A DNA stretch of 64,000 nt from Lacibacter luteus. GTDB lineage: Bacteria; Bacteroidota; Bacteroidia; Chitinophagales; Chitinophagaceae. This document shows positions 14,139 to 23,858 of the stretch, in pieces. A program made the position numbers and the translations under genes. The stretch lies in NCBI RefSeq assembly GCF_004118265.1, contig NZ_SDHW01000002.1:372001-436000 (forward strand), given 5' to 3'. Numbering within the stretch: position 1 is the stretch's first letter; each line of letters starts with the position of its first letter. The notes under the pieces are model-generated. The model had not been told where the DNA came from. It did no database searches and was given only the letters and a program-made list of their open reading frames with translations.

Positions 14139-14258
14139 ATGGCCGATGTCTATACTCCCCAGCAACGCTCCTTCAACATGAGCCGCATCAAAGGCAAAGA
14201 CATGAAGCCCTTCTTTATAGACAGCCCTTTCTGTGAGCACGCTAAAAAATTTAATTGA
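14139..14258 (+). pseudogene. vsr remnant (very-short-patch-repair endonuclease, N-terminal fragment)
   Basis: A 39-codon frame, MADVYTPQQRSFNMSRIKGK followed by DMKP, matches the conserved N-terminus of Vsr endonucleases, which nick 5' of T in T:G mismatches produced by deamination of 5-methylcytosine. After about residue 24 similarity stops: the expected leucine-rich helix, the metal-binding Asp and the FxHGCFWH zinc motif are all missing, and the frame ends at a TGA after 15 unrelated residues. It ends 3 nt before the glycosylase start. It is best read as a deletion scar; the short peptide could still be translated and couple initiation of the next gene. Confidence 0.7.
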
Positions 14259-14261
14259 ACA

Positions 14262-14927
14262 ATGAAGCCGCCTCTTTCAAAACACAGCATTGTTTTCTTT
14301 CAAGAAAAACTTTTGGAATGGTTCAAAGAAAGCGGTCGTTCTTTTCCTTGGCGTAAAAAAGGTCTAACACAATACCAATACATTGTTGCTGAAACTTTAC
14401 TGCAACGTACCAAAGCAGAAACGATCGCAAAATTTTACCCGCAGTTCATTAAGGATTTCCCTAGTTGGAAAGCATTAGCAAACACCAATCTTGAAAAATT
14501 AGAAACCTATTTAAAGCCAGTAGGCCTGTACAAGCAACGTTCTAAACGCTTGGTTAGCTTGGCACAGGAGATGGTAAAACGAAAAGGCCGTTTACCAAAA
14601 GAAAGGAGTGAGCTAGAATCAATTCCTTTCATGGGGCAATACATCGCAAACGCTGTGGAGTTAATTATTTTCAATCAACCGAGCCCGTTAGTTGATGTAA
14701 ATATGTCTCGTGTATTAGAACGTTTTTTTGGCCCAAGAAAAATGGCGGATATACGCTATGATACTTACTTGCAGCAACTCTCATACAAAATTGCAAATCA
14801 TGAACAATCAAAAGAGATCAATTGGGCTATCTTAGATTTTGCAGCATTAGTTTGTAGACCGAAACCATTATGTTTTATGTGTCCTGTTAACAGAAGATGC
14901 AAAAATTTTATAAGTTTATCCCTGTAA
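14262..14927 (+). CDS. HhH-GPD Fe-S DNA glycosylase, Mig/T:G mismatch type
   Basis: A 221-residue member of the Nth/MutY superfamily. Motifs in order: FPWR (28-31), AETLLQRT with Glu44, the helix-hairpin-helix IPFMGQYIANAV (121-132), VDVNMSRVL with catalytic Asp145, and a C-terminal 4Fe-4S set Cys198, 204, 207, 213. The residue after the hairpin is Tyr127, where Nth has the lyase Lys and MutY a Ser; Tyr with Asp is the signature of the archaeal T:G glycosylase Mig.Mth, itself encoded next to a C5 methyltransferase. It is therefore predicted to remove T opposite G at deaminated methylcytosines. Cysteine spacing is x5-x2-x5 rather than the usual x6-x2-x5. It lacks the MutY C-terminal MutT-like domain. 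First intact gene of the island. Confidence 0.88.
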   Translation: MKPPLSKHSIVFFQEKLLEWFKESGRSFPWRKKGLTQYQYIVAETLLQRTKAETIAKFYPQFIKDFPSWKALANTNLEKLETYLKPVGLYKQRSKRLVSLAQEMVKRKGRLPKERSELESIPFMGQYIANAVELIIFNQPSPLVDVNMSRVLERFFGPRKMADIRYDTYLQQLSYKIANHEQSKEINWAILDFAALVCRPKPLCFMCPVNRRCKNFISLSL

Positions 14928-14952
14928 TTTTACCCCTACAAACCAATCTGGA

Positions 14953-16428
14953 ATGGCGTTACCACAAAGAGAAAAATTAATGGAGGCACAGTTTCAAGCA
15001 TTCAAAGAGCTTGGCGGGGAAGCACATATAAGCGAAATTGATAGAAAAGTCACTTCTATTTTGGATTTAAGTGAGAAAGACTCCCATGAAATTCATGAAG
15101 GCAACAGAACAAAACTTGCTTACGAACTTGCTTGGGGTAGATTCTATTTAAAACAAGTAAACTTACTGGAAAAATTATCAAGAGGTCGCTGGTCATTGAC
15201 AGCTGAAGGTTTCGAAACTGACAAAATTGATACATATTCAATTGTTAACAATTACAGGCCGAAAGATTCGGTTGAGACAGAATTAGCAAATGACCTTAAT
15301 GATGACATTTTAAGAGAAGAAACAAATACTGAGGTTGAGAAAGAAGTACAAGAAATATCAATTGACATTAAAGATCCCTTTGATCCGAAATTAATAGATA
15401 TAAAGAGTAAAACAATGATGTTGAAAGCATTGTTTGAAAGGCTAAACCATGGTGAAATTGACCTATTTACAGATTTTCAAAGACAAGGTGATTTATGGGA
15501 TATAACAAAACAAAGCCGTTTAATCGAATCAATTCTTATTAGGTTTCCGCTACCTGCCTTTTATTTTGATGGCTCTGTTGACGATAAGTGGTTAATAGTC
15601 GATGGACTGCAAAGAGTTTCTGCTTTGAAGAACTTTGTAATTGACAAGAATTTTAAGGGTCAACCATTTAAACTGGCAAATCTTGAGTTTTTGAAAAATG
15701 TTGAAGGTCTATCGTATGATGATTTACCAAGAGATTTAAAAAGAAGAATAGACGAGACAGAAATAACCACTTACATAATTAGCCCAGGTACTCCAATCCA
15801 GGTAAAATACAATCTCTTTAAAAGAATTAACACAAGTGGGTTATTTTTAGAACCACAGGAAATTCGACATGCCCTGAATCAAGGTGAGCCGGCAAAGTTT
15901 GTAAAGGACCTGGCAGATTTACCTGAATTTAAGAAAGCCACATGTTATGCTATCAAAACAGAGCGTATGTTAGATAGGGACTTCGTTACAAGGTATGTCT
16001 CATTTAGGCTTATAAATTATAACGAGTATGAGCCCGATTTAGATAGCTTTTTAAATAAAGGCATGTCTTTAATCTCCACTATCTCACCTGTTCAGAGAAA
16101 TCAAATCAAAGTTGATTTTATTAAAGCAATGAATGCCTGCATCAGGTTATTTGATAAGTACGCCTTTCGAAAAAGATATCATATTGAAGATACTCGCAAG
16201 CCGATAAACAAAGCTTTATTCGAAACCTGGTCAGTTACTCTATCAAAGTTGTCCGAAGAAAGAATAAATAGCTTAATAAACGATAGCGATTCCGTAAATC
16301 TTCAGTTCATTCAGCTAATGAATAGCGACTACGCTTTTCAAAACTCAATTTCTACATCTACTAGCGATAAAAGTAGAGTTATAAAACGCTTTTCAGAAAT
16401 TCAAAATTTAGTAGATAACTTATGTTAG
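14953..16428 (+). CDS. Mrr_N winged-helix / DUF262 (GmrSD N-terminal-like) protein
   Basis: A 491-residue protein. Residues about 1-88 form an Mrr-type N-terminal winged helix (ELAWGRFYLKQVNLLEKLSRG, then RWSLTAEG), a DNA-binding module of type IV restriction enzymes. After an acidic linker (105-140), residues 150-480 are a DUF262 domain with FQRQGDLW (175-182), the nucleotide-handling motif VDGLQR (216-221) and FKRINTSG...PQEIR. DUF262 forms the N-terminal half of GmrSD-like restriction factors; the HNH half (DUF1524) is absent here. The Gln of the common DGQQR motif is Leu. It overlaps the following ATPase gene by 7 bp. Confidence 0.85.
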   Translation: MALPQREKLMEAQFQAFKELGGEAHISEIDRKVTSILDLSEKDSHEIHEGNRTKLAYELAWGRFYLKQVNLLEKLSRGRWSLTAEGFETDKIDTYSIVNNYRPKDSVETELANDLNDDILREETNTEVEKEVQEISIDIKDPFDPKLIDIKSKTMMLKALFERLNHGEIDLFTDFQRQGDLWDITKQSRLIESILIRFPLPAFYFDGSVDDKWLIVDGLQRVSALKNFVIDKNFKGQPFKLANLEFLKNVEGLSYDDLPRDLKRRIDETEITTYIISPGTPIQVKYNLFKRINTSGLFLEPQEIRHALNQGEPAKFVKDLADLPEFKKATCYAIKTERMLDRDFVTRYVSFRLINYNEYEPDLDSFLNKGMSLISTISPVQRNQIKVDFIKAMNACIRLFDKYAFRKRYHIEDTRKPINKALFETWSVTLSKLSEERINSLINDSDSVNLQFIQLMNSDYAFQNSISTSTSDKSRVIKRFSEIQNLVDNLC

Positions 16429-17537
16429 ACCAATTGCACATTTACAATTTCAAATCTTTGAAAAAAGCTCCAATGGATTTGAAAAGACTGAACATTCTTT
16501 CAGGCTTAAATGGCATGGGCAAGTCTTCAGTTATTCAATCATTGTTGCTACTAAGGCAATCATATCAAAAAGGCTTACTTGAAAAAGTAGGTCTTGTTTT
16601 AAAAGGTGATTATATAGAACTTGGCACAGGTAAGGACGTGTTTTATGAAGCTGCGGGAGAAGAAGAACAACTAACCTTCAAAACAGTATTCCAGCATTCT
16701 GAATCAATTTGGGCTTTTGATTATTCAGCACAAAAACATGTATTACCTGTAAATACTGCACTTTCAAAATTTGATGCTAGTAGTTTCAAGGAATCACTGT
16801 TTTCTAATAATTTTCAATACATAAATGCTGAACACATATCACCCTTAAGCCTTCATAAAAAATCGCAGCTTGATGTTAATGAAAATCGGCAAATAGGAAT
16901 TCATGGCGAATATGCAGTGCATTACTTGGTAGAGTTTGGAGATAAAGAAAAAGTTGTATTTGAAAATCTTATACACCCGAAAGCCAAATCTGAATTTTTA
17001 GGTCATAACGTAGAAGCATGGCTCAGTGAAATTTCTCCTGGAATAAGATTAAAAACAGACGATCTTTTTTCTGTCGATCAAACAAAGCTTGGCTTTGAAT
17101 TTGAAAATGGAACAGGATTTACAAATGAGTTCAGGCCTGTAAACGTTGGCTTTGGAATATCTCATATTTTACCAGTGTTGGTTGCAATTCTAAGCGCCAA
17201 AGAAGAAAAATTAATTCTCATAGAAAACCCTGAATCACATATACATCCGAGAGGCCAATCTGTTGTGGGCCAATTATTATTCAAAGCCTCTCAAAACAAT
17301 ATTCAGCTTTTAGTTGAAACTCATAGCGATCATATACTGAATGGTGTTCGTGTAGAAGCATTTCGTACTAAAGCCGGAGCAGATAATGTAGGCTTGTTCT
17401 TTTTTGAAAGAAATAAAGAAACGGAAGAGCACTTCAGTATTTTCAAAACGCCAATATTAGACAACAACGGGAGAGTTGATTCCTGGCCAGAAGGTTTCTT
17501 CGACGAGTGGGAACGCACTTTAATTGAACTAGTATAA
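16422..17537 (+). CDS. AAA/ABC-like ATPase with DUF3696
   Basis: A 371-residue P-loop ATPase of the OLD/RecF-like ABC superfamily. Walker A is GLNGMGKSS (28-36), the signature-like NVGFGISHILPV is at 241-252, and Walker B is LILIENPESHIHP (264-276), the form usual in DUF3696 proteins. A switch His follows in VETHSDHILNGVR. The C-terminal 50 residues (FSIFKTPILDNNGRV, then SWPEGFFDEW) are DUF3696. No TOPRIM nuclease domain is attached. The ATG lies inside the end of the DUF262 gene (7-bp overlap), indicating translational coupling; DUF262 and DUF3696 proteins probably act together. Confidence 0.88.
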   Translation: MLDQLHIYNFKSLKKAPMDLKRLNILSGLNGMGKSSVIQSLLLLRQSYQKGLLEKVGLVLKGDYIELGTGKDVFYEAAGEEEQLTFKTVFQHSESIWAFDYSAQKHVLPVNTALSKFDASSFKESLFSNNFQYINAEHISPLSLHKKSQLDVNENRQIGIHGEYAVHYLVEFGDKEKVVFENLIHPKAKSEFLGHNVEAWLSEISPGIRLKTDDLFSVDQTKLGFEFENGTGFTNEFRPVNVGFGISHILPVLVAILSAKEEKLILIENPESHIHPRGQSVVGQLLFKASQNNIQLLVETHSDHILNGVRVEAFRTKAGADNVGLFFFERNKETEEHFSIFKTPILDNNGRVDSWPEGFFDEWERTLIELV

Positions 17538-17542
17538 ATAAT

Positions 17543-18319
17543 ATGGAGGTAATTTTCAACGAAGTTTCCTTTCAGAATATTGCTGCTTCTCCGGAAGAAG
17601 CAAACAAATGGATGGATGACTTTTTTAACTCGTTAAAAACACTTGAAAAAAGATTGCACAAAACAGTTTACACAAGTTCTGTTTCAGCTTTCTCTGGTCA
17701 GTTTATAGCAAACAATTACGTTTTTAGCCAATGGCTAAGTAATATTAAAGATCGTGAATGGTTACGCAAAATAATTGCAATAACAACACATTTGCCGTTT
17801 CGTCATCCGGAGGGTATTTATCAATTTAATGGCCTTGCAGTTTATGGATTAGGTCTTGCTTTTGAAGAAGATAAACTTACATGCAGCTACCCTGTCACAG
17901 AATGGAATGCAAGTATTACATTCTCATCGGAGATCATTGACGCCGCTGATGTTGTGGTTCAAACACCTTGTGCAGTAAAAAATATTGTTTCTTCAAATTC
18001 AGTATTTGAACATTTTCCTGCATTTGTATTTGAACATCATGAAAAGCATGATAGCAAACGACACAATTTAAATGACGGTGAGTCCACTCTATATTACAAT
18101 ATACCTAACGATCAAGAAACTGTTCAAAAATTACTAGATTGTTCATTTTCAGAAAATGGTGAGGAAGAAGAACGTCGCTATGTCTACGACGAGAACCAAA
18201 AAAAATATGTAGAATTCAATTGTCATCAAGGCCTAAAATATCACGGATATCACATTGAAGATGCCAATAGGGTGCCTCATACAGTGAAACTGAAAATACA
18301 CAACTTCAAAGATTTATAA
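17543..18319 (+). CDS. Unknown protein of the DUF262/DUF3696 cassette
   Basis: 258 residues, 5 bp after the ATPase stop and so surely co-transcribed. No signal peptide or membrane segment. The middle (residues 80-135) contains aromatic-rich stretches (THLPFRHPEGIYQFNGLAVY), and residues 165-185 are His/Asp-rich. The C-terminal 45 residues, YVYDENQKKYVEFNCH followed by GLKYHGYHI and a basic tail, look like a small compact beta domain with several His and Tyr residues that could be catalytic, but I cannot assign it to a nuclease or toxin family. Its position suggests it is the effector or accessory partner of the trio. Confidence 0.75.
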   Translation: MEVIFNEVSFQNIAASPEEANKWMDDFFNSLKTLEKRLHKTVYTSSVSAFSGQFIANNYVFSQWLSNIKDREWLRKIIAITTHLPFRHPEGIYQFNGLAVYGLGLAFEEDKLTCSYPVTEWNASITFSSEIIDAADVVVQTPCAVKNIVSSNSVFEHFPAFVFEHHEKHDSKRHNLNDGESTLYYNIPNDQETVQKLLDCSFSENGEEEERRYVYDENQKKYVEFNCHQGLKYHGYHIEDANRVPHTVKLKIHNFKDL

Positions 18320-18326
18320 CTAAGTA

Positions 18327-18382
18327 GTTGATTATCAACAAAAATTTACAATTCACTATATTGTAACTAAATAATAATTTTG
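18327..18382 (+). promoter_or_regulatory. Candidate promoter/operator of the methyltransferase operon
   Basis: A perfect 13-bp palindrome GTTGATTATCAAC (18327-18339) lies upstream of TAATTTTG (18375-18382), which matches the Bacteroidota -7 box TAnnTTTG exactly. The box is 23 bp before the methyltransferase start. No well-spaced -33 TTG is evident, so the promoter call is moderate; the palindrome could be the binding site of the island's XRE regulator. Confidence 0.45.
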
Positions 18383-18405
18383 GTTCAGAATTCTAACTCA
18401 TTAAT

Positions 18406-19638
18406 TTGGAACCAAAAACACAACCTACCTACATAGACCTCTTTGCCGGCTGTGGCGGACTTTCGTTGGGCTTACACAACGCTGGCTGGAAAGGAATTTT
18501 TGCAATTGAAAAGAGTCCCGATGCTTTTGAAACTCTCGAATACAACTTGCTTTTAAAAAAAAATCATTTTGATTGGCCTGAATGGCTTCCTCAAACAAAT
18601 CATGATATCAACAAAGTATTGTCTGATTATAAAGAACAATTACTTCAGTTAAGAGATAAAGTTGACATGGTTACAGGAGGGCCACCTTGTCAGGGCTTTT
18701 CACACGCAGGGCTGAGAAAAGAAAACGATGTCAGGAATGGTCTTATTCGTTCCTACTTGCAGTTTATTATGCTGGTACGTCCTAAAATGATTTTTTTTGA
18801 GAATGTGAGGGGCTTTACCCAGGAATTTAAAACCAACAAAACAAAAGGCTGGGCCTATTCAGAGTATGTCCTAAGAGCACTGCGATTCTTTAAATACGAT
18901 GTCGAAGGCCACATGGTCGATTTTTCGAAGTTTGGTATTCCGCAAAAACGAACCAGGTTTATTCTTGTGGGAGTTCGTAAAGACGTGGCCACAACAACAA
19001 AAGCTTCTGCAAAGGATTTTTTCCGGCAGTTGAAATCGAATAAATATCAATTTCTGAAAAAGAAAGGTCTGCCGCAAAAGCCAACCTTAAGTAATGCTAT
19101 TTCCGACTTACTTAAGAAAGATGAAACTAATCTTGAGGCAACACCCGACAGGGGCAAAAAATTCAAAAGTGGTTTGTATGGAAATACTACTTCAAAATAC
19201 CAGGAAGTATTACGTGCTGGCTATGATAATGTAATTCCCGATAGCCACAGCTTTGCCAACCACAAAAAAGAAATTGAAAACAAGTTTAAAGATTTGCTCC
19301 GCACTGAAACACCTAACAAAAACATCAGCAAAAAGGCCAGGAAAAAGTATGGCATTAAAAAACATATGATTATTCCGCTCTCGCCAAACCACCCTGCCCC
19401 AACCATAACTACTTTGCCAGATGATTATATTCACTTTTCCGAACCAAGAATATTAACGGTAAGGGAATATGCCCGGATACAAAGCTTTCCTGATTGGTAT
19501 GCCATTAAGGGAAAATATACTACAGGAGGACCAATGCGGGTAAAAGAAGTTCCTCGTTATACACAAATAGGAAATGCTATTCCCCCTCTGTTTGGAGAGC
19601 AGGGAGGATTAGTTTTAAAACAACTAATCAGCAAATGA
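18406..19638 (+). CDS. DNA (cytosine-5)-methyltransferase
   Basis: About 410 residues, a C5 methylase with motifs in order: I DLFAGCGGLSLGL (11-23, SAM binding), IV TGGPPCQGFSHAG with catalytic Cys95, VI ENVRGF (Glu132), VIII QKRTRFILVG, and X YTQIGNAIPP near the C-terminus. The stretch between VIII and IX is long (over 130 residues) and basic and should contain the target recognition domain; specificity cannot be read. The only start fitting motif I spacing is TTG at 18406: an in-frame stop lies 12 bp upstream. The stop overlaps the next ATG (ATGA). No cognate restriction endonuclease is recognisable next to it. Confidence 0.93.
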   Translation: MEPKTQPTYIDLFAGCGGLSLGLHNAGWKGIFAIEKSPDAFETLEYNLLLKKNHFDWPEWLPQTNHDINKVLSDYKEQLLQLRDKVDMVTGGPPCQGFSHAGLRKENDVRNGLIRSYLQFIMLVRPKMIFFENVRGFTQEFKTNKTKGWAYSEYVLRALRFFKYDVEGHMVDFSKFGIPQKRTRFILVGVRKDVATTTKASAKDFFRQLKSNKYQFLKKKGLPQKPTLSNAISDLLKKDETNLEATPDRGKKFKSGLYGNTTSKYQEVLRAGYDNVIPDSHSFANHKKEIENKFKDLLRTETPNKNISKKARKKYGIKKHMIIPLSPNHPAPTITTLPDDYIHFSEPRILTVREYARIQSFPDWYAIKGKYTTGGPMRVKEVPRYTQIGNAIPPLFGEQGGLVLKQLISK

Positions 19639-21944
19639 GTAGTAAATATTTTAAAGTTAGTTCGGCCTTAAAAAATCTTATTGGAAGTGATTTGATCACC
19701 GACAATTTCGTTGCTGTATTTGAACTTGTAAAAAACTCATTTGATGCCAGAGCAACAGAGGTGAAAATCATTTTTAAGGACATATATTCAAATAATGCAC
19801 AAATAATCATACAAGATAACGGCAAGGGAATGGATTATAAAGATCTAACCGAAAAGTGGCTATTCCTTGGTTATTCTGCTAAAAGAGATAACACAGAAGA
19901 TGATTATAGAGATAAAATAAAGTCAGGAAGAGTTTATGCTGGAGCAAAGGGTGTAGGACGATTTTCTTGTGATCGACTTGGAAAGTATTTAAATCTTACT
20001 ACCGTCAGTAAAAAACCAAACAGTAGAATTGAAAATATTTTTGTTGACTGGAGTAAGTTCGAAAAAAATCAGAAAGTACTGTTTGAGCAAATTCCGGTAG
20101 TACATTCCGTAGCTCAAAAAACTAATTATAACTTAAAACATGGCACTATTCTGGAAATTTCAGGCGTTCCAGTTGATTTTTGGAACAGAGATAACTTTAA
20201 AAAATTAAAAGAAAAACTTTCAAAACTCATTCGCCCTGATCTTAACAGCTCTGATGATCTGCAAAAATTCAAAATCATTCTTTCCGTTCCAGATGAAGAA
20301 AGTAAAGACAAAGAGATTCTGAAGGAAAAGGGCAACAACGAGATACATCAGTACTATAGCACAATAAATGGCGAGATAAAAAACTTTGTATTCAATGAAC
20401 TTGATATAAAGACGACAAAAATTGAATCACAAATAGACAATACTGGAATAATTACAACAAGATTAACAGACAGGGAAAACTTTATCTATGAAATAAAGGA
20501 AAAAAGCCAATTTGATTTGCTTAGCAATATAAACATCACATTATATTTTTTAAACCGTTCTGGTAAAATAACATTTCATAAGCGAACAGGAGTTGAGCAT
20601 GTAGACTTTGGTAGTTTGTTTGTTTATAAAAATGGATTCCGGATTTATCCCTACGGCGAAAGAGGAGATGATTCTTTAAGATTGGAAAATCGAGCGCTTC
20701 AAGGTTACGCTAGGTATATTGGTCTAAGAAGTTTAATTGGTGAAATTTCAATTGGAAACTCAAATGAAGATCTACGAGAAACAACTAGCCGTGGAGATGG
20801 CTTGGTAAAAACAAAAGCATATGAACAGTTAACGAATACGGATGATGGATACTTGATTCAAACATTAAGAAGGCTTGAAAAGTATGTTGTAGATGTAACA
20901 CAATGGGGCGTTAACAGTGATGATGAAAATATTGATCTAACATCTAAAAAAGCAATCGAAGGTCTTGTAAAACTTATTGCAAATATTTCTGATAAGCAAA
21001 CTTTAGAATTAAAGTACAACAAGGATATCATCAATTTGATATCGCTTAGGGAAGAAAAAAGTGCAAAAAAATTAGTTCAAAATTTTAAGCGAATTGCTGC
21101 AGAATCCAATGATAAAAATCTTTATAAAGAGGCACAAAAAATTGAAAAGGCAATTACATCATCTTTAAAAAGAGCTGATTCTGCAGAAAAAGAAAGGGAT
21201 GCAAAAATCATTGAAAAAAAACAGGTAGAAAAAGAACTCGAAAAGAAAAAAGAGCAGCTAAGCATTGCTAATTCAATTGCCTCTCAGGATATTGACAACG
21301 TTACAAATCTTCATCATCAGGTCCGGGTGATTACAGACGTTATCAAAACTGAGTTGTTGTTATTCTCAAGAAAATTAGGGAAAGGCGCAATTATTTCAAA
21401 TGAAGAATTAAAGGATTTCATTGAGAAAATTTCCTTTGAAAACAATAAAATCGAAGCTATTTCGAAATTTGGATCAAGAGCAATATTTGAGAATTTTACA
21501 GACATTTCCAAAGCGGATTTAGCAGGCTTTATCGAAAACTATGTCAACAAAATTTCTAATTATTTTTCCTCCACAAAAACAAAGGTTCTTTTCCAGAATA
21601 ATTTGAAGAGTCCTTTTGAAATTAGGTTTCGTCCATTAGATGTTTCAATTATTATTGACAATATGATTAGCAATTCAAAGAAGGCCGACGCTACCTCATT
21701 ATATATTGAGTTAAATAAATCAAACGATAAGGAATTAAACATCTGCTTTAGAGATAATGGCAAGGGGATAAGCAAAGAGATAAAAGATGTAAATGAAATA
21801 TTCGTTAAGACTTTTTCAACAACAAGAAGTACTGGATTAGGGCTCTATCACATTATGAATATCATTACAGAAAACAAGTGGGAAATTTCAGTTAATACAA
21901 ATAATCCAAAAGGAGTTCAATTTAATATAATCGTAAAAAAATGA
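19635..21944 (+). CDS. Double-GHKL protein: MORC/Hsp90-like ATPase plus histidine-kinase-like C-terminus
   Basis: 769 residues, starting in a 4-bp ATGA overlap with the methyltransferase. The N-terminal ATPase has N-box ELVKNSFDA (30-38), G1 DNGKGM (61-66) and G2/lid GAKGVGRFS (103-111), the pattern of Hsp90/MutL/MORC-type GHKL proteins, followed by an S5-like and linker region to about 440. A highly charged coiled coil spans roughly 495-550. Then a helical segment with NLHHQVRV (His560/His561) resembles a dimerisation/phosphoacceptor helix, and a second GHKL domain follows: IDNMISNSKKA (674 on), DNGKGI (707-712) and TGLGLYHI. Two such ATPases in one chain, next to a receiver protein, suggests an ATP-gated sensor kinase. 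Confidence 0.85.
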   Translation: MSSKYFKVSSALKNLIGSDLITDNFVAVFELVKNSFDARATEVKIIFKDIYSNNAQIIIQDNGKGMDYKDLTEKWLFLGYSAKRDNTEDDYRDKIKSGRVYAGAKGVGRFSCDRLGKYLNLTTVSKKPNSRIENIFVDWSKFEKNQKVLFEQIPVVHSVAQKTNYNLKHGTILEISGVPVDFWNRDNFKKLKEKLSKLIRPDLNSSDDLQKFKIILSVPDEESKDKEILKEKGNNEIHQYYSTINGEIKNFVFNELDIKTTKIESQIDNTGIITTRLTDRENFIYEIKEKSQFDLLSNINITLYFLNRSGKITFHKRTGVEHVDFGSLFVYKNGFRIYPYGERGDDSLRLENRALQGYARYIGLRSLIGEISIGNSNEDLRETTSRGDGLVKTKAYEQLTNTDDGYLIQTLRRLEKYVVDVTQWGVNSDDENIDLTSKKAIEGLVKLIANISDKQTLELKYNKDIINLISLREEKSAKKLVQNFKRIAAESNDKNLYKEAQKIEKAITSSLKRADSAEKERDAKIIEKKQVEKELEKKKEQLSIANSIASQDIDNVTNLHHQVRVITDVIKTELLLFSRKLGKGAIISNEELKDFIEKISFENNKIEAISKFGSRAIFENFTDISKADLAGFIENYVNKISNYFSSTKTKVLFQNNLKSPFEIRFRPLDVSIIIDNMISNSKKADATSLYIELNKSNDKELNICFRDNGKGISKEIKDVNEIFVKTFSTTRSTGLGLYHIMNIITENKWEISVNTNNPKGVQFNIIVKK

Positions 21945-22870
21945 AACTAGATTATAATATTTTATGGTTCGAGGATATTAAAAGCTCTTTTGAAGCTAAA
22001 AAGCTTATTGTAAAAGAAATTGTTGAGGAATTTGGCTTTAATTTTTCCGAACCCCGTAACGAAATTGACGGAAGGAATATTGAGGCAATTGACTATGAAA
22101 AATATGACCTTCTACTTGTCGACTTAAATCTCGCCGGCACTAAAGGGCCAGCGCTAATTGACAAAATAAGACACAATGAAGGTGTGTATACTGAAGTAAT
22201 ATTTTATTCCTCCGATGGTGAAAAGGCAGTTCGAAACGTTTTAAAAGAATATGAAATCGATGGAGCGTATTGCGCTGGTCGTGAAAATGATGATTTTGAA
22301 GAAAAGGTACAGAAGGTAATTAAAACTACAATCAAAAAAGTTCAGGACATAAATAACATGAGAGGATTAATTATGGCAGAAACGAGTGATATCGATCATA
22401 CAATGCTCTCAATTATTAATACGGTTATCAGTACCAACTCCTTTGGGATTAAGGATAGTTTGACTCAAAAAATTTTTGAAAATGTACAAAGTAAAGTATC
22501 AAGCAAAAAGGATGATTTTGATAGGTTTCTAAGAAACAACAGAATTGAAAACGTTATAAAAGACAATATAATGTTTGATACATCTCAAAAAATATTAGCT
22601 ATCCAATTTATTATAGACTCTATTGATCACGAAATTACGCATCCACATAAAGGCAATCAATTTAGCACTAGTTATTCTGAGTTGAAGCAAAAGCGAGACC
22701 TATTAGCGCATGTTGTAGAAGTTTATGAGGATGGAATAAAGAAATTAAAAAGTGGAAATAGAGAACTAGAATTCACGGATGAGTTTTGTGTAGATGTTCG
22801 AGTTAAGATCAAAGGCCACTCAACTAATCTTGGGCAAATCTTGAGTTTAGTTGTTCAAACTAATTCCTAA
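21941..22870 (+). CDS. Receiver-domain protein with HEPN-like C-terminal domain
   Basis: 309 residues, overlapping the kinase-like gene by ATGA. Residues 1-130 form a receiver fold: acidic pair in ILWFED (11-12), phosphoacceptor Asp61 in LLLVDLNLAG, and Ser in VIFYSSDGE (90-91). The conserved receiver Lys is not where expected; CAGREND stands in its place, so phosphorylation chemistry may be altered. Residues 145-305 are all-helical, with KQKRDLLAHVVEVYEDG containing Arg252-x4-His257, the motif of HEPN ribonucleases. No DNA-binding output domain is present. It is inferred to be the effector of the double-GHKL partner, perhaps an RNase released on signal. The HEPN call rests on one short motif and helical content. 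Confidence 0.8.
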   Translation: MKLDYNILWFEDIKSSFEAKKLIVKEIVEEFGFNFSEPRNEIDGRNIEAIDYEKYDLLLVDLNLAGTKGPALIDKIRHNEGVYTEVIFYSSDGEKAVRNVLKEYEIDGAYCAGRENDDFEEKVQKVIKTTIKKVQDINNMRGLIMAETSDIDHTMLSIINTVISTNSFGIKDSLTQKIFENVQSKVSSKKDDFDRFLRNNRIENVIKDNIMFDTSQKILAIQFIIDSIDHEITHPHKGNQFSTSYSELKQKRDLLAHVVEVYEDGIKKLKSGNRELEFTDEFCVDVRVKIKGHSTNLGQILSLVVQTNS

Positions 22871-22964
22871 AATGAATGCTTATATTAGATTATAAGTGTT
22901 CTCATAAATTAGTTTTCGCCTATATTCAAAAAAGAATTTAGAAATGCAAGAGTTAAAACAATGC

Positions 22965-23528
22965 TTATTTATAAAATACATCAACCATTCTTTTTCCTGT
23001 CTTTCCATTGGCTAATATGATGGGCTTCTTTTTACGTTTCAAAAGTTTTCTATCTACCATGTAATTCAAAATCTGTGAAATCTGTTTACTGGTATAAGAA
23101 AAGCCGTTTTGACTACAAGCGCTTCGCACTTCTTTAACATAAACAGGTTTATCAAAGAAGCCGCTTTTATATAGTTTATTTTCAACGAAAAACGAACTCT
23201 TTCCTTCAGAATTGGTTTTTATAAAATAGCTGGTTGTATGCTTAGTGTCATTGTAAAAATTTTTTAGTAACGGCGCATTCCTTAATTCTTCAGTCAATTT
23301 ATAAGATCTGTCAGTAAGGTTCTTTGCAGAAATACCGAACTTATTTGCGATCTTTTCAGCTGCTCCTTCAGTAATTTCTCTTGTTCCATTCAACATTGCA
23401 TATACATGGCTTTCGGATATATTAATAAACTCTGCAAATCCAGAAATTTCTAAGCCTGATATTTTCCTCAGCTTAATTAGTCGTGCGGTTAATTGTTTAG
23501 ATGTGATTTTTGTTTTCGTACTTGCCAT
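22965..23528 (-). CDS. XRE-family regulator with C-terminal winged-helix-like domain
   Basis: 187 residues, very basic. Residues 10-70 form a Cro/C1-type helix-turn-helix (LTARLIKLRKISGLEISGFA followed by EFINISESHVYAMLNGTREI). The C-terminal 70 residues (VYVKEVRSACSQNGFSYTSK, QILNYMVDRKLLKRKKK) resemble a second winged helix. It faces the island operon tail to tail (94-bp spacer) and shares its low GC, so it is likely the island's control protein. A TCTCCC-AAA-GGGAGA hairpin abuts its start codon. The direction of control is unknown. Confidence 0.82.
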   Translation of the reverse strand: MASTKTKITSKQLTARLIKLRKISGLEISGFAEFINISESHVYAMLNGTREITEGAAEKIANKFGISAKNLTDRSYKLTEELRNAPLLKNFYNDTKHTTSYFIKTNSEGKSSFFVENKLYKSGFFDKPVYVKEVRSACSQNGFSYTSKQISQILNYMVDRKLLKRKKKPIILANGKTGKRMVDVFYK

Positions 23529-23645: not shown

Positions 23646-23858
23646 GTCTCGTTACTCAAAGTTTGACAGCCAAGAAAACGAGACGGTAAGTAAATGCCCA
23701 TATCTTCTATGGATACACTTTTTATCCTAAGTTTGATGTGGGCCTTACCGTTATTCCGCTTTTCTTGGCTGTCAAAAAACGAGTGAGTGGAAGAAAGTAG
23801 GGCCCACATTTTACAGTCTACTTACTCCATTGCAGGCTCTCTTAACTAGAATGAGAGC
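23646..23858 (+). ncRNA. Candidate structured non-coding RNA
   Basis: This 560-bp gene-free stretch (23529-24088) holds several exact inverted repeats. Arm A TTTGACAGCCAAGAAAA (23662-23678) pairs over all 17 bases with 23760-23776; nested inside, ACGGTAAG (23683-23690) pairs with CTTACCGT (23744-23751). ATGTGGGCC (23736-23744) in the apical region pairs with GGCCCACAT (23801-23809) outside the stem, forming a pseudoknot or a competing fold. GTCTCGTT (23646-23653) can pair with AACGAGAC (23677-23684), and a further hairpin GCTCTC/GAGAGC lies at 23836-23858. Such nesting with internal loops is typical of a functional RNA. Strand and ends are uncertain; a 6S-like RNA, a leader of the SusC gene, or an island-encoded RNA are alternatives. 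Confidence 0.5.

Follow-up and report, generated by a model that had tools for sequence, protein, structure and literature searches.

The stretch analyzed here, termed the window, comprises 64,000 nucleotides of Lacibacter luteus (contig NZ_SDHW01000002.1, positions 372,001 to 436,000 of the forward strand), and coordinates count from its first letter. This report concerns an AT-rich island in the window and, within it, an operon of three genes (the triad) encoding a C5-cytosine DNA methyltransferase, a sensor kinase and a response regulator. The island covers positions 14262-23528 with eight intact open reading frames (ORFs), the GC content of which is 0.32-0.39 versus 0.47-0.50 in the flanking genes; from 14262 to 22870 the genes are tightly spaced on one strand. 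It is composed of two adjacent systems, namely a trio of genes belonging to Menshen and the separate methylase/kinase/regulator triad, and we refuse to regard the whole island as one new system. A preliminary description, made from the sequence alone, had counted nine genes; the AT-rich composition and eight of the genes stand, and the ninth, at 14139, is the start of a vsr gene followed by a stop codon and is no gene. The domain calls of that description (glycosylase, Mrr_N-DUF262, DUF3696 ATPase, C5 methylase, double GHKL and XRE) are all matched by Pfam, which also agrees with it in finding neither a Z1 helicase nor a nuclease of the PD-(D/E)XK family among the eight window proteins.

All three triad genes lie on the plus strand. 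The C5 methyltransferase (18406..19638, TTG start assumed) matches its Pfam family with 1.6e-54. Its target-recognition region displays an identity of 0.26-0.51 to 20 main-family methylases compared, 0.15-0.17 to three methylases linked with HpaII-type nucleases, and 0.15-0.20 to three linked with HEF_HK kinases (see below). The sensor kinase (19635..21944) combines a MutL/paraMORC-like ATPase, a coiled coil, a DHp helix with His561, and a histidine-kinase ATPase. The response regulator (21941..22870) consists of a receiver domain (Asp61) and a C-terminal helical domain with the motif R252-x4-H257, a predicted HEPN RNase output.

In the "double GHKL" protein of the preliminary description, a MutL-like ATPase is joined to a genuine histidine kinase. 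Pfam detects HATPase_c_3 (4e-26) and HATPase_c (4e-17) in the window kinase. The N-terminal half resembles PMS1/MutL (6.5e-7, 2.4e-5), and residues 25-227 match the N-terminus of the BbrUII/HgiDII restriction enzyme family (3e-19); the methylases of this family, M.HgiDII and M.BbrUII, form 5-methylcytosine (PMC5867850). In the C-terminal half, the family profile matches HK853 (about 9e-18) across the DHp and ATPase domains, and the invariant His561 aligns with the phospho-acceptor histidine in the 'SHELRTPL' H-box of HK853. This residue is histidine in 84/84 family rows; the alignment of 85 rows includes HEF_HK-type L130, the sole row without histidine at 561, and leaves out L121, where the kinase is cut by the contig end. 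Both features by which two-component kinases are recognized, a DHp histidine and an N/G-box ATPase, are present. The best PDB matches of the AlphaFold2 (AF2) model of the kinase are HK853 cores (template modelling score by target 0.56-0.63), and Hsp90/TRAP1 rank lower; when this comparison is examined for an S5 domain, the Hsp90/TRAP1 matches extend over about 500 columns with a root-mean-square deviation of 14-15. The kinase of locus L022 (6678-9500) carries about 115 extra N-terminal residues that are absent from the other seven aligned and have no Pfam match.

For the regulator, AF2 yields a confident two-domain model (predicted local distance difference test, pLDDT, 92.4; predicted template modelling score, pTM, 0.86), in which R252 and H257 sit at a helix end before a beta hairpin in the C-terminal helical domain. 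The window receiver matches Pfam with 4.5e-6 and 27.2 bits, slightly below the cut-off of 30.2. Conservation was assessed in 74 sequences (a 72-row alignment plus L107 and L119, with short regulators left out), throughout which Asp61, Gly69, Arg77, Tyr89, Arg141, Gly142, Arg252 and His257 are invariant. Receiver position 11 is Asp or Glu and position 90 Ser or Thr in 74/74; position 12 is Asp in 63 and Asn in 11; position 253 is Asn in 71/74 and Asp in three, the window protein included. The R-x4-6-H motif characteristic of HEPN domains is thereby present in 74/74. PF18735 matches 3/20 relatives searched by domain only (best 1.6e-6) and PF18737 matches two. Among the 72 full-length rows, HEPN_Swt1 is detected in three, RiboL-PSP in one and MAE_28990 in one (25 of 61 families shown), and the PADLOC models for CARF-HEPN and Csx1 give weak matches in 1 to 3 of the 72. 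The C-terminal domain is predicted to be HEPN on the basis of the invariant motif and these matches of a few relatives.

The triad is a separate and widespread operon, next to which Menshen is found only here among the loci examined. Searching the regulator protein in 395 genomes of the phylum gave matches in 20 genomes, eight of them long (bit score > 58, own genome included) and the other 12 short and at the level of the receiver; kinase and C5 methylase adjoin the regulator in 7/7 long matches outside the window. Scanning 84,980 species genomes by pattern, on the basis of the kinase alignment, gave 287 stretches, 246 of which are relatives; the loci analyzed are the best 80 of these 246, which favours close relatives (L023-L025 duplicate the contigs of L084, L071 and L091). 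Relatives of the triad span Bacteroidota, Bacillota, Planctomycetota, Pseudomonadota, Verrucomicrobiota, Acidobacteriota and others. A methylase stands beside the kinase in 71 of the 72 loci examined (68 exceeding 300 residues; three cut or split in L092, L064 and L106; none in L101). The order methylase-kinase-regulator on one strand is kept in 63 of the 68 loci with a methylase of more than 300 residues (62 loci plus L069, which carries methylases on both sides), the remaining five having the methylase on the opposite strand. Gaps in the 62 co-directional loci are -29 to +20 bp between methylase and kinase and -41 to +9 bp between kinase and regulator. The conservation of gene order that the preliminary description proposed to look for therefore exists for the triad, and does not extend to the Menshen trio. 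Mantel correlations are 0.82 for kinase and regulator, 0.56 for methylase and kinase, and 0.56 for methylase and regulator (0/2000 permutations), values that still include shared ancestry. Of the three proteins, the regulator evolves fastest, with a median identity of 0.26 versus 0.41 and 0.54.

The gene directly after the kinase encodes a full-length receiver-HEPN protein in 69/80 loci and a regulator consisting of the receiver only in 7/80 (L055, L066, L076, L079, L117, L120, L122). Three of the latter have a gene for an HpaII-type nuclease between methylase and kinase (L117:8904-9983, L122:8904-9983, L120:2792-3865); the L117 nuclease matches PF09561 with 8.5e-141, and the L122 and L120 copies are 80% and 63% identical to it. 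These HpaII-linked and the other receiver-only variants suggest that the output of the regulator is exchangeable between lineages, and they fit a purely regulatory role equally well. L087 and L121 (2/80) end at a contig edge. In L061 and L116 (2/80), two genes take the place of the third gene (L061:12334-13795, L116:12283-13693), the first encoding a different protein of 231-238 residues, receiver-like by eye. The product of the second, 243-251 residues long with GHG and Cys motifs and no family match, is possibly another effector; a CHAT/caspase-like identity is unsupported, since the motifs were noticed only by eye and neither Pfam nor PDB returns a relevant match. Relatives of Vsr or HNH_2 occur on 13/80 triad loci, and a glycosylase on 6/80. 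The matches of the kinase in mobile elements are partial only, with 2 phage records and 85 plasmid records, none of the latter covering 80% of the query; the regulator, searched in plasmids alone, has no match there.

Upstream of the triad, three consecutive window proteins match the PADLOC profiles NsnA, NsnB and NsnC, adjacent and in this order; we take the Nsn names to denote the Menshen system. NsnA (14953..16428, plus strand; 2.2e-132, the profile covering residues 113-489) is a DUF262/GmrSD_N protein with an additional N-terminal Mrr_N domain (Pfam 8e-18 and 8e-14, respectively). This Mrr_N (14953-15290) lies outside the NsnA profile and sets the window protein apart from other Menshen, as 0/10 other NsnA relatives scanned, out of 13 loci, carry it. 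NsnB (16422..17537, plus strand; 4.6e-108) joins an AAA ATPase to DUF3696 (Pfam 1e-14). NsnC (17543..18319, plus strand; 1.4e-21) is matched by nine NsnC models altogether and by no Pfam family above the cut-off. Menshen is described as containing a DUF262 gene and an OLD-type partner (PMC10952713). Relatives of NsnA occur in 12/247 phylum genomes at E <= 1e-25, the own genome among these; the 13 loci used for comparison are 11 from other phylum genomes and two from the same genus. Within the stretches fetched, neither triad kinase nor triad regulator stands beside NsnA in any of these 13 loci, of which nine have a recognizable NsnB and two (L158, L159) a methylase nearby; conversely, Nsn relatives are found on 0/80 triad loci. 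Judged by these profiles and the gene order, the DUF262/DUF3696 trio is Menshen; it is independent of the triad. The preliminary description was thus right to treat the trio as a second, separate arm; its premise that no named system was present is wrong for the trio, and one new island formed by the whole block is unsupported.

The plan of the triad has a precedent. In Bellieny-Rabelo et al. (2021; PMC8011034), histidine-kinase-like and response-regulator-like genes are linked in 91.6% of 644 regions, where C5 methylases, Vsr and HNH_2 also occur. HEF_HK (PF19191)/Response_reg_2 (PF19192) resembles the triad in that a kinase of HATPase_c_3, DHp and HATPase_c stands beside a receiver protein and next to a C5 methylase, and in having Vsr and HNH_2 neighbours, as some triad loci do. 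The preliminary description had set the layout apart from known GHKL/methylase layouts; a methylase/GHKL/response-regulator plan has been described for this related family. However, the proteins differ. The HEF_HK-type kinase has 966-1001 residues and its regulator 525-575 (seven examples), the triad regulator being shorter; the motif R[N/D]xx[A/G]H is found in 0/7 PF19192 examples versus 74/74 triad regulators. Profile comparison joins HEF_HK and the triad kinase over the N-terminal half only (E 3e-36), and the match between PF19192-type and triad receivers is weak (E 7e-4, probability 26%). PF19191 and PF19192 have no match in the window proteins, nor at E up to 1 in eight members each; PF19192 matches 2/72 regulator rows (best 0.0017). 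No genome is common to the triad and HEF_HK hit lists (7/395 and 7/296 genomes, in samples that are not identical). Filing the kinase/regulator pair under HEF_HK/Response_reg_2 is ruled out by the Pfam non-match, the profile comparison and the absence of the motif. On this comparison, the two receivers are distantly related, and the triad is the same plan as HEF_HK/Response_reg_2 in a different protein family.

Anantharaman et al. (2013; PMC3710099) describe direct fusions of HEPN domains with paraMORC ATPases in restriction-modification (R-M) neighbourhoods. This paraMORC-HEPN (Ymh) likewise sets a GHKL paraMORC and a HEPN domain beside R-M genes, but as a direct fusion, whereas the triad distributes them over two proteins joined through a histidine kinase and a receiver. 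GHKL and HEPN have hence been paired before, while a kinase-receiver link between them was not found in print; literature searches aimed at the family, with partial coverage of the literature, returned no description of a receiver-HEPN protein with a methylase. The paraMORC/MORC R-M systems of Iyer, Abhiman and Aravind (2008; PMC2292703) combine a GHKL ATPase with a DNA methylase and Vsr-type repair as the triad does, and the feature that defines paraMORC R-M, an N-terminal GHKL ATPase with a methylase, is present. Unlike these systems, the window block lacks both a nuclease and any SF2 helicase, Z1 included, according to Pfam, and its GHKL domain is fused to a histidine kinase. In the DefensePredictor study, the legend of Fig. 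6F lists HATPase and REC domains for systems that are predicted and unvalidated (PMC13092281); these may be the same family as the triad. Detocs, which also appears in a table of PMC10952713, resembles the triad in being a two-component phosphorelay; it is reportedly an anti-phage defence with no methylase and a nucleotide-destroying effector (Rousset et al., 2023). No Dtc model is among the PADLOC matches listed for the window.

A phosphorelay from kinase to regulator, as predicted from sequence, is well supported because the invariant His561, the receiver Asp61 and the HEPN R-x4-H are conserved, and it deserves more confidence than the complete chain set out below; the preliminary description had proposed such a relay, linked to the C5 methylase, and the counts given above (His 84/84, Asp and HEPN Arg/His 74/74, order 63/68) speak for it. 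As these residues are conserved in a tight operon, a relay to an RNase is the simplest reading. We infer the following course of signalling. The C5 methylase would mark host sites as self, and the N-terminal MutL/paraMORC-like ATPase of the kinase would engage DNA as a clamp. Upon unmodified or invading DNA, the kinase would autophosphorylate His561 via its C-terminal kinase ATPase, and the phosphate would pass from His561 to Asp61 of the regulator. Phosphorylation may free or dimerise the HEPN domain, R252 and H257 of which would then cut RNA, and this cleavage would presumably stop the infected cell or the phage. Since the co-encoded methylase would mark host DNA, the trigger is probably missing methylation or an infection signal on DNA. 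We give this whole chain, a methylase-licensed phosphorelay to a predicted HEPN RNase serving restriction-type defence, an even chance of being correct. More tentatively, the triad could be an R-M system in which the phosphorelay, instead of a DNA nuclease, serves as the restriction arm, with a MutL-like clamp sensing the missing methyl mark, a receiver-gated HEPN toxin cleaving RNA, and an output domain swapped between lineages.

Several results weigh against a relay to a HEPN RNase in defence. The receiver lacks a conserved lysine at the end of strand 5 (positions 104-120, 74 sequences) and is therefore atypical. The receiver-HEPN assignment of the preliminary description holds for the motif and the few, weakly matching relatives, but the window regulator is matched by none of the Pfam HEPN families. 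In fold searches with the whole regulator against PDB and viral structures, hits to the receiver prevail; the 50 PDB rows listed for its model include no HEPN structure, and a profile of the HEPN half searched against PDB at E up to 10 retrieves nothing named HEPN or relevant. The kinase model is of moderate confidence (pLDDT 77.7, pTM 0.55). PADLOC leaves the regulator unmatched and gives the kinase just one weak hit, to TmtA (1.3e-4), so the triad has no prior evidence of defence. Finally, the receiver-only loci retain the kinase, mostly with a methylase, but without HEPN.

This last point leads to an alternative that we consider unlikely, in which the helical domain is no toxin and the relay, acting as signalling or transcription control in an ordinary R-M system, adjusts how strongly the methylase or a nuclease is expressed or how active it is. 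It would account for the 7/80 loci with a receiver and no output domain, three with an HpaII-type nuclease gene, and for HNH_2 or Vsr relatives on 13/80. However, R252 and H257 are invariant in 74/74 although the regulator evolves fastest of the three proteins, and HNH_2 and Vsr relatives are absent from 67/80 loci, a count taken with other nuclease families not scanned and some loci short. The near-constant methylase (71/72 loci) would also agree with the opposite trigger, where presence of 5-methylcytosine, be it the mark of the own methylase on phage DNA or a foreign one, activates the kinase, as the preliminary description had suggested. We regard this as rather improbable, as by our reasoning a methylase from the same operon would mark the host and keep the toxin constantly on, unless phosphorylation inhibits HEPN. 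That all eight genes form one integrated defence system is very improbable. Tight same-strand spacing over 14262-22870 and uniformly low GC point in this direction, and the genes could be co-transcribed; yet Menshen and triad occur apart elsewhere (0/80 triad loci, 0/13 NsnA loci), and in four relatives (L048, L049, L058, L068) a glycosylase gene precedes the methylase by 6-133 bp without an intervening trio. The Menshen trio of the window thus separates two genes that adjoin each other there.

If the methylase-licensed relay is true, it joins methylation as a self-mark, MutL/MORC-type ATPases and two-component signalling, which are usually studied apart, and a GHKL clamp would be shown to be able to report the state of DNA by phosphorylation. 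Eukaryotic MORC proteins also act beside DNA methylation, which would make a bacterial example whose output can be read valuable. The conserved residues make each relay step testable by single point mutations.

The first gene of the island (14262..14927, plus strand) encodes a Mig-like HhH-GPD mismatch glycosylase (HhH-GPD 9e-18), an accessory repair gene. Its GQY motif has Tyr in place of the Lys of endonuclease III in 7/7 copies, which we take to be the signature of MIG thymine glycosylases. The enzyme would mend T:G mismatches arising from deamination of 5-methylcytosine, elsewhere the job of Vsr. In L055 and L089 the glycosylase gene is convergent. Just upstream lies the vsr remnant (14139..14210, plus strand), which corresponds to the opening 24 codons of a gene for a Vsr endonuclease and is followed by unrelated codons and a stop; it is not a working gene. 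With 84.9% DNA identity over 86 bases, it matches the beginning of a vsr gene that is intact (Vsr Pfam 1.2e-35) in the same-genus genome G400 (locus L139). The gene flanking the island on the left has its counterpart in G400 (73% DNA identity), and after it come the intact vsr and genes for a C5 methylase, a GHKL protein, a Z1 protein and an AIPR protein, a layout close to the classical paraMORC/MORC one (PMC2292703). This suggests that the site once held a Z1/GHKL/Vsr system, and from these two genomes it appears that one methylase/GHKL system replaced another at the same site.

An XRE-family regulator gene (22965..23528, minus strand; HTH_3 2e-6) is convergent to the triad and possibly regulates the island; no relative of it is found on the 80 triad loci, nor within seven genes of the kinase in 14 other loci. 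An inverted repeat around TTTGACAGCCAAGAAAA / TTTTCTTGGCTGTCAAA was noticed by eye at 23660-23790, in the interval that separates the XRE gene from the gene that follows.

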